A stretch of 43,912 bases of DNA from Campylobacterales bacterium (GTDB taxonomy: Bacteria > Campylobacterota > Campylobacteria > Campylobacterales > Nitratiruptoraceae): NCBI GenBank assembly GCA_027065825.1, contig JAMONM010000036.1:1-43912 (forward strand), read 5' to 3'. Below, in pieces: positions 27,085 to 31,712 of the stretch. The position numbers and the translations under genes are program-made. Numbering within the stretch: the first letter of the stretch is position 1; each line of letters begins with the position of its first letter. The notes beneath the pieces were generated by a model. That model was not told the DNA's origin, did no database searches, and worked only from the letters and a program-made list of their open reading frames with translations.

Positions 27085-27963
27085 ATGAAAAAACTAATGG
27101 TTTCTGCCGTTGCGGCGCTTATGCTACTATCCGGTTCCGCAATAGCCAGCGATGCCAGCAAGGCCGCCTCAAATCAGGCGCTAAGCCAGGCAAAAATAGA
27201 GGCTAAAAAACAGCAAAAAGAGGTAAAGATAATCCAAGAGGCCGTCGATGCCGTTGCCTTGACTCATCAGGTGCTGGTGGCTCTGGATAAGAAAAAAGAG
27301 GAGGAGGCTCTAAAAAAGCTGGAAAAAGCGATAGGAAAGTTGGAAGTTGTTATGGCCGCCCCTAACGCTCCGGCGCTAATTCCAATCGATACCTCGGTAG
27401 AAGTGGTAGAGTTTCCTGGCAGCGTAAAGGATATAGAGATAGCTCTAATTACAGTAAAAGCTCTGCTTAAAGAGAACAAGATCCAAGAGGCAAGAAAACT
27501 GTTAGATACGCTAAGAAGCGAAATAGTTATCAAAACGGTGAATCTGCCTTTGGCTTCATATCCTGCGGCGTTGAAACTGGCGGCCAAATTTCTGCACGAA
27601 AACAGAATAGATGAGGCGAAAAACATTTTGAACCAAGCTCTATCTACGTTCGTGGAGGTGGACATAGTCACTCCGATTCCTCTGCTCAAAGCCCAGTTCC
27701 TCGTAGAAGAGGCCAAAAGGATAGCCAAAAAAGAGAAAAAGAAGGCTCTAGATTACCTAAAAGAGGCGAAATCTGAACTGAAAAAGGCCGAGTATCTCGG
27801 ATATACCAGCGAATCTGACACTACGTACGAATCTTTGAAAGAGGCGATCGAGAAAATAGAAAAAGAGGTCAAAGGTAAAAACAGCGCGGAAAAACTCTTT
27901 GATGAACTGATTCAAAAACTCAAAGAGTTCAAAGAGAAAGCGATCAAAAGATTTAGCAAATAA
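27085..27963 (+). CDS. exported YfdX-family protein
   Basis: 292 residues. A signal peptide (MKKLMVSAVAALMLLSGSAIA) ends near 21, so it acts in the periplasm. The mature part is alpha-helical, Lys/Glu-rich and resembles YfdX: VAALTHQ-type helix, a P-x-D hinge (APALIPIDTSVEVVEFPGS), then helical pairs like NKIQEARKLLDTL and NRIDEAKNILNQAL that look TPR-like. YfdX in enterobacteria is induced by EvgA and tied to acid and drug tolerance; the biochemical role is not known. It leads a tight unit with DUF1931, HdeD and Prx genes (gaps of 9-12 bases). Confidence 0.8.
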   Translation: MKKLMVSAVAALMLLSGSAIASDASKAASNQALSQAKIEAKKQQKEVKIIQEAVDAVALTHQVLVALDKKKEEEALKKLEKAIGKLEVVMAAPNAPALIPIDTSVEVVEFPGSVKDIEIALITVKALLKENKIQEARKLLDTLRSEIVIKTVNLPLASYPAALKLAAKFLHENRIDEAKNILNQALSTFVEVDIVTPIPLLKAQFLVEEAKRIAKKEKKKALDYLKEAKSELKKAEYLGYTSESDTTYESLKEAIEKIEKEVKGKNSAEKLFDELIQKLKEFKEKAIKRFSK

Positions 27964-27974
27964 AAGGAGAGATT

Positions 27975-28421
27975 ATGGCTGTAATGGGTTTTCACCATCT
28001 TGAGGAGCTTTTTAGAAGATCCGCCGGTCTCGATATAAAAAAAGGACACGCCAAAGAGATAACGGACATCGTAGAGCAAAAGCTCTACGATATTCTCTTG
28101 ATGGGACAAAAAAGCGCTAAATACAACGGCAGGGACGTAATATGGAAAAGCGATCTGCCGATCACCAAGGGAATGGAGGAGAGTATAGCCCGATTCAAAA
28201 AACTCGAGCAAGATCTTCCGGTAAAGGATATTCTCGAAAGACTGGCCACATACCCGCCTCTTATCGAACTGGAGGTTGAGCTGGAAGAGTCGCTACCCGA
28301 GATCGTGGGAGGATTGACGCTGGTTTTGGCCAACATAATAAAAGAGGCGGATCAAAACAGCAGAACCGTAAATCACGAATCGATAGAGAGAGCCCACAAA
28401 ATTATGAATCTGACCATGTAA
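27975..28421 (+). CDS. DUF1931 double-histone-fold protein
   Basis: 148 residues. MAVMGFHHLEELFRRSAGLDI, split as in the family, then GRDVIWKSDLPITKGMEESI and a second half ending ESLPEIVGGLTLVLANI match DUF1931, known from Aquifex (aq_328) and Thermus structures as two histone folds in one chain. The first fold spans about 5-70 and the second about 80-145. Such pseudodimers resemble archaeal histones, but whether they wrap DNA is not settled. A strong AAAGGAGAG site precedes the ATG. Its place between YfdX and HdeD suggests a role under stress; that is inference. Confidence 0.85.
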   Translation: MAVMGFHHLEELFRRSAGLDIKKGHAKEITDIVEQKLYDILLMGQKSAKYNGRDVIWKSDLPITKGMEESIARFKKLEQDLPVKDILERLATYPPLIELEVELEESLPEIVGGLTLVLANIIKEADQNSRTVNHESIERAHKIMNLTM

Positions 28422-28991: not shown

Positions 28992-29804
28992 ATGGGAGTC
29001 GCAGAAGATCTTAAAAAAAGAATCGACGAGATAGTGGATTCCAACAAAGATATGGCAAAAAAATTGGTCAATCTTTTCGAGGAACAAATAGAAGAGCTAA
29101 CCCGCAGACTGGGACCTAAAAAAAATGAGGATATTTTAGCCTCTTTGTTTGCCGGATGCGCGAAGGAGAGAGGAAAAATGCCGATGCTGGGAGAGGTTTT
29201 TCCGAAAATAGAGACGCAAACCACTCACGGGCCAATCTCGATTCCTGAGGATTTAAAGGGGAAATGGAGCGTTCTTTTTAGCCATCCGGCCGACTTTACG
29301 CCGGTATGCACCACCGAATTTGTAGCATTTCAAAAGAGAAAAGAGGAGTTTGACAGATTAAATACCCGCCTAATAGGACTGTCGATCGATCAGGTATTTT
29401 CCCATATCAAATGGATAGAGTGGATAAAGGAGAAACTCGATATCGAGATAGAGTTTCCTATCGTAGCCGCCACCGACACCATAGCGGCCGAACTCGGGAT
29501 GGTGCATCCAAAAAAGGGCACGAATACTGTAAGAGCCGTATTCATTCTGGATCCCGAAGCGGTAGTACGGACCATACTCTACTATCCGCAAGAAATCGGT
29601 CGTAATATCGACGAGATACTAAGAGCTTTAAAAGCTTTGCAAAAGAGCGACGAGGAGGGGGTAGCCACGCCTGCCAACTGGCCCAAAAACGAACTGATAG
29701 GCGATAGGGTAATCGTACCGCCTGCCGCCGATATCAAAACCGCCGACGAAAGAGTTAAAAAATATGAGTGTTTCGATTGGTGGTTTTGCCATAAAGAGGG
29801 GTGA
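28992..29804 (+). CDS. archaeal-type Prx6 peroxiredoxin with N-terminal extension
   Basis: Thiol peroxidase reducing H2O2 and organic peroxides. The peroxidatic cysteine is C106 in FTPVCTTEF, and FDWWFCH at the C-terminus gives C260 and C266, matching the two extra cysteines of archaeal Prx6 enzymes such as the Aeropyrum one. The Prx domain begins near residue 63. The first 62 residues are two amphipathic helices plus a lone C56 ([10 protein letters not shown]), which the family normally lacks. An internal ATG at 29178, with AAGGAG nine bases before it, would yield an ordinary 208-residue enzyme. AAAGGAGG precedes the main start. Confidence 0.9.
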
Positions 29805-29867: not shown

Positions 29868-31712
29868 ATGCTGATAAAAAAAGAGGAAGCTAAGATATTG
29901 ACTCATCTTTTAAACCGAAAAGATGAGACCGTAGATGTAAAAACTCTAAACGATAAAGGAGTCGAAATATTAAATCTGGGAGGACTCGTTCATTTTCCAA
30001 CCCCTTCGAAAATAGCACTCACATACGGTGGAGAGATGGTAGCCAAAATAGTCGATACCCTCTCTAATCGAATCGATCTGGAAAAGAAAAAAGAGGGTTT
30101 CAAACTAATAGGCAGCGAAACCGTAGCGATGATAGACTCCGCCGTCAAAGGAGGTTTTAAAGCCTCAAATTCCAGCGAAAATCATCTAAAAGAGCGGGGT
30201 CTGATAAACGAAAAAGGCGAGCTTACCCAAGAGGCCCTAGAGCTCTATGAAGCCTATAAAATATTGCGCCCCGAACTGGTTATAGACGCCAAATTCGCGG
30301 ATTTTCTGAGACACTCTCCTACCGGTCCCACAAACTCTCACTATCTTCCGGACGAGGAGAATCTAAAAGATATGGCCGAAGCCATGAGACTGATAGCCTA
30401 TAGCGTTCCCGACGGAGAGTATTACGCTTTTACGAGACTCGGCAAATGCGTAAAGGAGACCCTATCGCTCGGAATTTTCGCTCAAGAGGGCACCGTTATG
30501 GATATAGCCATCTTAAAAGAGATCGCGAATCTGGCAGATAGCGACGAGATAGAGACGGAGACGGCGGCAAAGCTGGAAGAGCTGGGATACGTAACCGCTC
30601 AAAACGAACTCTCCGCCGCCGGGGAAAAGGCTTTGGAGGTCTACAGAGTCTACAAGGATATGGAAGAAGCTCCTCTAAAGAGCTTTGCGATCGAAATAGA
30701 GGAGATAGAGACGCTAAAAGCGATCAAAAACATTCTCGAAGAGAAATTTCAAAACAACCCGGAGGAGTCTCCAACTTTCGAGGAGATCAAAAAAGAGCTC
30801 GTAGATAGAAAAGTGGCCCAATATAAAAAAGTTTTGCAAAAATATGGCAAACGTCTTGAGACCATGCCTAAAAAGAAAAGAGAGATCGCTCAAAAGTTTG
30901 CCGATACCAAAGATTACCAAAAGTGGTTCGAAGATAGTTTCGACCTCAGAGAGTATCTATACTCTCTCGAAGCTTTCGGCTTAATTACGGAAAGCGTGGA
31001 TAAAAAAGGCAGACCCGTATATCTTTTGACAAATAGAGGTCAAAGGGTTTTGCAAGATCAAAAGGACGAAAGAGCTATACACTCATGGAGCGTCAAAACC
31101 TTGACGATATCGGACAAATATATCAGCTCTCCAAAAAGAGAATGGGTGGAAGAGGCTCGAAAAGAGCGACTGCTCGGCACTTTCGAAGCGACCGTTTCCG
31201 GAGCCTTCTACGAAGAGCTGGCCAAAGCCGAAAAACTGCCCTTTATAACAAAATACGAGATGGAGATTTTCAAAAAAATTCCGCATAGCGGAGCGCAGAT
31301 AGAAGAGTTGCTCCAAGAGGAGGACTCCGCAAAAACTCTCGAGGCTCTGGACAAACTGGAAGCGAAAGGCTTCGTAGAGATTCTGCCTGATGGACATATC
31401 GTAGAGACGGAATACGGTAAAATGATGGACGACGCAATGAGCGGGGTTCCGAGCGGATTCGGGGCTCCGGTAAATCCTATAATCTACAGGGTGGTAAAGG
31501 CGATCGCCCAAACAGGCACTCTCTACGTAAAAGAGAAAAAAGTCAGAATTTTGCCCAAAAACATCGCCCAAGCCATCAAAAAAAGCGGCCTTAGCAAAGA
31601 TGCTTTCGAAAAAGCGTATACGGCCGCCAAAGAGGCGGGATATCTCGGTAAGAACAGCGTCAACGAAGCTGGACTTAAAATGTTAAAGGCGGTAGAGTCT
31701 CTAAATTCGTAA
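29868..31712 (+). CDS. DUF505-like protein with repeated winged-helix-type segments
   Basis: 614 residues, no signal peptide or membrane helix, so cytosolic. From memory it resembles DUF505/COG1542, described in archaea and Aquificae without known function. A pattern 'helix, G-[YLF]-[IV], short strand, G..L helix' recurs near residues 107-127 ([17 protein letters not shown]), 235-257 ([21 protein letters not shown]), 366-395 ([16 protein letters not shown]), 495-518 and 585-607, spaced ~90-130 residues. This looks like serial winged-helix domains, suggesting nucleic-acid or protein binding. Residues 280-350 are a charged helical linker. It ends one base before the convergent sufT stop. Confidence 0.65.

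Follow-up and report, generated by a model that had tools for sequence, protein, structure and literature searches.

The window analysed here, a stretch of 43,912 nucleotides from a Campylobacterales genome, carries a series of five co-directional genes with a tRNA-Pro gene upstream of it. In order, the five encode a YfdX family protein, a DUF1931 protein, an HdeD-family protein, a peroxiredoxin and a DUF505 protein (Table 1). The genes are separated by gaps of 11, 9, 12 and 63 nt, and clear GGAG-type sites precede the starts of the DUF1931, peroxiredoxin and DUF505 genes, while the site before HdeD is less clear. The DUF1931 gene is probably co-transcribed with the other four. An earlier note on this DNA had placed DUF1931 in a stress operon with HdeD and peroxiredoxin, and this linkage held up: the genes are tightly packed in one direction, their order is conserved elsewhere, and the association extends to other phyla. 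The operon also gained two members that the earlier note did not have, YfdX upstream and DUF505 downstream.

Table 1. Features of the operon and of the DUF1931 protein
Feature	Position	Strand	Basis
YfdX family protein of 292 aa; signal peptide of Sec type judged by eye; first operon gene	27085..27963	+	PF10938 E=6e-39, synteny
DUF1931 double-histone-fold (pseudodimeric) protein, 148 aa, ATG start	27975..28421	+	PF09123, 1WWI/1R4V, AF2, Foldseek
Histone fold 1, residues 6-76 (a1 6-17, a2 23-50, a3 65-76)	27990..28202	+	Model secondary structure, conservation, hhalign register to HMfB
L2 motif of fold 1, N51-G-R53-D54, with structural pair R53/D60	within 27990..28202	+	
Histone fold 2, residues 83-147 (a1' 83-90, a2' 101-125, a3' 134-147)	28221..28415	+	Model, charge count
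HdeD-family (DUF308) inner-membrane protein, 182 aa	28431..28979	+	PF03729 E=7e-19; NF007577 E=1e-19, below equivalog cut-off
1-Cys (Prx6-type) peroxiredoxin, 270 aa	28992..29804	+	PF00578, PF10417
DUF505 protein of 614 aa, perhaps with winged-helix units in tandem; last operon gene	29868..31712	+	PF04458 E=6e-210; low-confidence model

The window was also scanned for regulatory sites. No HrcA (CIRCE) or HspR (HAIR) operator was found in it, the sigma-70 promoter and terminator scans stayed at chance level, and so did a single near-match to an FNR-type site. The peroxiredoxin has a charged, probably helical N-terminal extension of about 60 amino acids (28992-29174), which is present in two relatives' loci (L021 and L024) and absent in a third (L018).

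The DUF1931 profile PF09123 covers the whole product (profile positions 1-138 of 138, E=2e-51, 174 bits against a Pfam gathering cut-off of 21.8 bits), which adds the protein to this known family as a new member. It matches two proteins of known structure along their full length, TTHA1479 (1WWI, E=3e-33) and Aq_328 (1R4V, E=2.5e-17). An AlphaFold2 model built from 17 Campylobacterota sequences has a mean pLDDT of 90.8, and Foldseek aligned it to 1WWI with a TM score of 0.96, to 1R4V with 0.81 and to single-chain H2A-H2B dimers with about 0.6; chains of Sos1 and SAGA were weak matches. The earlier note had claimed a double histone fold and proposed a comparison with Aq_328, and the predicted structure bears it out: in the model two histone folds lie in one chain and pair with each other, an assignment that we consider secure. 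The same full-length Pfam match and double fold are found in TTHA1479, Aq_328 and the Thermococcus protein Q5JHD0, and the family shares with the window protein its acidity (TTHA1479 has a pI of 5.14) and the L2 motif NGRD...DLP. What differs from these known proteins is the setting, a YfdX-HdeD-peroxiredoxin-DUF505 operon in a Campylobacterota genome. Within the coding sequence there is an inverted repeat whose two 10-bp arms match perfectly around a 4-nt loop (28068-28091), but relatives keep only part of it and no perfect stem, and it is probably incidental.

Gene neighbourhoods in Campylobacterota and on plasmids

The core order YfdX-DUF1931-HdeD recurs in the genus and family of the window's genome and in metagenome-assembled genomes that we take to be Nitratifractor-like, often with DUF505 and peroxiredoxin, and because this order is conserved in other genomes the linkage is not a matter of chance. 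Two genomes of another family have a changed order, YfdX-HdeD-DUF1931-Prx. In one relative (L025) two Hsp20 genes and a thioredoxin gene are added upstream of the operon; apart from that Hsp20, no match to Hsp20, ClpB, DnaK or GroEL was found in the relatives' loci. Many family members have a Crp/Fnr-type regulator gene directly upstream of YfdX (for example L021:6288-6962), and two loci (L034 and L035) have one upstream of DUF1931 itself; there is none beside the window operon.

DUF1931 occurs in 20 of 298 Campylobacterota genomes. YfdX is present in all 20 (34/298 overall, p=2e-22), DUF505 in 16 of them and in 3 of the 278 others (19 overall, p=4e-20), and reverse gyrase above cut-off in 13 (14/298 overall, p=6e-17), p-values that ignore phylogeny and shared thermophile habitat; DUF1232, an arbitrary control family, gave p=0.012 in the same comparison, which points to some lineage bias. 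The YfdX link stays among genomes that lack reverse gyrase (7 of 7 DUF1931 genomes, p=3e-9, to be read in the same way), and in the genome that holds the window no reverse gyrase passes the cut-off. DUF505 co-occurs strongly with YfdX as well as with DUF1931 in Campylobacterota.

The pairing of YfdX and HdeD is known from the tLST island, or locus of heat resistance, where the two form a cell-envelope module (yfdX1-yfdX2-hdeD) that is required for resistance to heat and chlorine (PMC8290217). Both are together in the window too, with a redox protein near. Unlike tLST, the window operon lacks ClpK, FtsH, KefB and DegP and has DUF1931 inserted between YfdX and HdeD; the sHsp-ClpK proteostasis module of the tLST type is absent from the operon genes identified.

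One scan of genome contigs gave DUF1931 matches from Campylobacterota only. Beyond Campylobacterota, 72,556 plasmid records were surveyed for DUF1931 at E<=1e-3, which gave 21 plasmids. ClpB at 58% identity or more is carried by 19 of these 21 and by about 27 of the 72,556 plasmids, counted among the matches listed, ranked by coverage times identity; a p-value for this comparison treats near-identical plasmids as independent and should not be read at face value. When the plasmids are grouped into independent settings there are five of these, and in four of them chaperone genes lie near DUF1931.

The arrangements differ between the settings. In Rhodococcus and Nocardia a co-directional series runs from a general stress protein through DnaK, GrpE, a J-protein, CbpM, ClpB, thioredoxin, a UBP-type zinc finger and thioredoxin reductase to DUF1931, which is the last gene, 13 nt behind thioredoxin reductase. 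In Trichormus and Nostoc DUF1931 lies near GroES-GroEL, Hsp20 and thioredoxin, together with DnaK in Trichormus, and ClpB is 14-19 kb away. The plasmid of Streptomyces angustmyceticus has DnaK about 7 kb and ClpB about 11 kb from DUF1931, and the Aquicella plasmid has Hsp20-Hsp20-DUF1931 with GroESL-Hsp20 close by. The exception is the copy of Rhodococcus RHA1, near which no chaperone genes were found. Control sequence of 200 kb (50 kb from each of four of these plasmids) held no chaperone match other than on the margin of the Aquicella cluster. The annotation of the inspected plasmids shows no DUF505 next to DUF1931.

Two details of these loci were also recorded. At one of them (L068:8275-9990) the thioredoxin reductase is annotated with a cyclic-nucleotide-binding domain, and there too a UBP-type zinc-finger protein gene stands just before DUF1931. 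The Aquicella DUF1931, adjoining its two Hsp20 genes, appears split by a Tn3-family element (L062:2869-8324). Enterobacterial plasmids gave no DUF1931 match, and a phage histone was considered and set aside, as viral contigs and phage records held no DUF1931.

In Thermus, TTHA1479 (the 1WWI protein) is eight locus numbers from ClpB (TTHA1487), and TTHA1488, TTHA1489 and TTHA1491 are DafA, DnaJ and DnaK by published assignment; the proximity to this chaperone cluster is judged by locus number alone. The Thermus HB27 counterpart, TT_C1115, is listed with genes that tolerate transposon insertion less readily.

The link between DUF1931 and chaperone neighbourhoods is frequent and not obligatory. 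In genomes that are presumably Nautilia-type (L049-L054) DUF1931 stands behind accA-fabF or moeA, in most of them with a YfaZ-like gene, and not beside stress genes, and other copies adjoin enolase or SelO. One genome of the same genus as the window's (G053, locus L074) keeps YfdX-HdeD-Prx-DUF505 at the corresponding position, but DUF1931 is cleanly missing from between the first two genes, and none was found elsewhere in that genome, so DUF1931 is dispensable to this module. These varied contexts, the RHA1 copy and the G053 module would fit a protein whose thermophile housekeeping role has nothing to do with chaperones and which is simply carried along in these operons and mobile islands. We think this unlikely: chaperones lie beside DUF1931 on plasmids of three phyla, in differing arrangements, and in Thermus by locus number, and the ClpB association among plasmids is far above chance even allowing for relatedness.

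DNA-binding positions compared with archaeal histones

The earlier note had offered two hints about function, protection of DNA during stress or a histone fold reused as a protein scaffold. Of these the first is disfavoured by what was found, and reuse of the fold fits the chaperone contexts better. The window protein has a pI of 5.57 and a net charge of -5, compared with 9.59 and +3 for the archaeal histone HMfB, and the DUF1931 homologues examined have pI values of 4.8-5.6. An acidic surface had been named as a point against DNA binding, and the acidity seen is that of the overall charge only: residues 1-76 carry a net +3 and residues 77-148 a net -8.

Fold 1 was set against HMfB with hhalign, in an ungapped register that is consistent with the predicted helices and scores far below homology significance, and in it the HMfB DNA contacts R10, R19, K53 and T54 correspond to L12, I21, D54 and V55, the first two paired by counting from the shared A-G that ends the first helix. 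None of the four contacts is kept. All 40 homologues have hydrophobic residues at positions 12, 21 and 55 and Asp or Glu at 54, where HMfB has its contact lysine. The histone fold itself is shared with HMfB and with the DNA-binding bacterial histone HBb, and R53 and D60, invariant in 40/40 sequences, align with the R52/D59 pair of HMfB. The difference is that HMfB dimerises and wraps DNA, whereas DUF1931 is an acidic single chain with two folds, the first of them without the four contacts.

Some basic positions stay. K23, at the L1 end of fold 1, is Lys or Arg in all 40 homologues, and R130, in L2 of fold 2, in 38; R130 is the one basic contact position that fold 2 keeps, the remaining positions of that fold being uncertain. 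The two loops would lie next to each other in a histone pair, and judging from the sequence this one half-site could bind phosphate or, weakly, DNA.

A role in stress-time DNA protection would rest on this half-site: the pseudodimer would bind or bend DNA through it and compact or shield the nucleoid during heat or oxidative stress. Along with the fold and the net positive charge of the first half, the co-occurrence of DUF1931 with reverse gyrase, whose gene serves DNA topology in thermophiles, speaks for such a role, as does the high expression reported for Aquifex and Thermus (PMC10627809). Published surveys state that the family lacks DNA-binding residues, and the contact losses in fold 1 agree with that. 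Given the acidic pI, the replaced contacts and the HU protein encoded in the same genome, DNA packaging by the window protein is not favoured on its sequence, and protection of DNA is improbable.

A possible role in protein quality control

We put the probability at about 0.5 that the window protein, which is probably cytosolic, has had its histone fold put to a new use, as a protein-binding accessory in heat and oxidative proteostasis, and does not wrap DNA. The reading draws on heat and oxidative proteostasis as the thread common to the neighbourhoods in Campylobacterota, Actinomycetota, Cyanobacteriota, Pseudomonadota and Thermus, and gene neighbourhoods bear on function only indirectly. 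The operon would be expressed under stress, and the acidic pseudodimer would bind another protein, either a stress-damaged client or a chaperone or redox partner; conserved residues that surround L2 of fold 1 (N51-R53-D54, and K36 and D39 with them) may form the contact. It would then act as a holdase or adaptor in heat and oxidative protein quality control. YfdX is probably periplasmic, so a direct partnership of DUF1931 with it is unlikely.

DUF505 was also weighed as a partner. In this reading, the most doubtful of the alternatives, DUF1931 would be a regulatory or scaffold subunit that pairs with DUF505, and the resulting TAF-like complex would control the stress response through transcription or signalling. 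The co-occurrence of the two families, their joint presence in M. jannaschii and a DUF505 model with at least four helix-strand-strand-helix units resembling winged helices agree with this. Against it, the model (29868-31712) is of low confidence (pLDDT 65.9), DUF1931 occurs in Thermus composti in the absence of DUF505 and DUF505 in Thermotoga in the absence of DUF1931, and the two are not annotated side by side on the inspected plasmids.

Histone folds are also known outside chromatin. In TAFs, SPT3 and the Sos1 H domain the fold serves protein complexes, each time as a domain or subunit of an established assembly, whereas DUF1931 has no known partner.

Bacteria have two main families of histone-fold proteins, of which DUF1931 is one, and published surveys assign it no settled function. 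A limited search of excerpts from the DUF1931 literature returned no description of a link to chaperone clusters. We suggest, tentatively, that DUF1931 may belong, across phyla, to proteostasis clusters both mobile and chromosomal, as a histone fold turned into a heat and redox chaperone factor that works with DnaK-ClpB, Hsp20/GroEL or YfdX-HdeD systems. The recurrent chaperone neighbourhood is the finding of interest, and it gives DUF1931 a concrete, testable role. If that role is true, it would mark a route by which a histone fold could have passed from DNA packaging to protein quality control.
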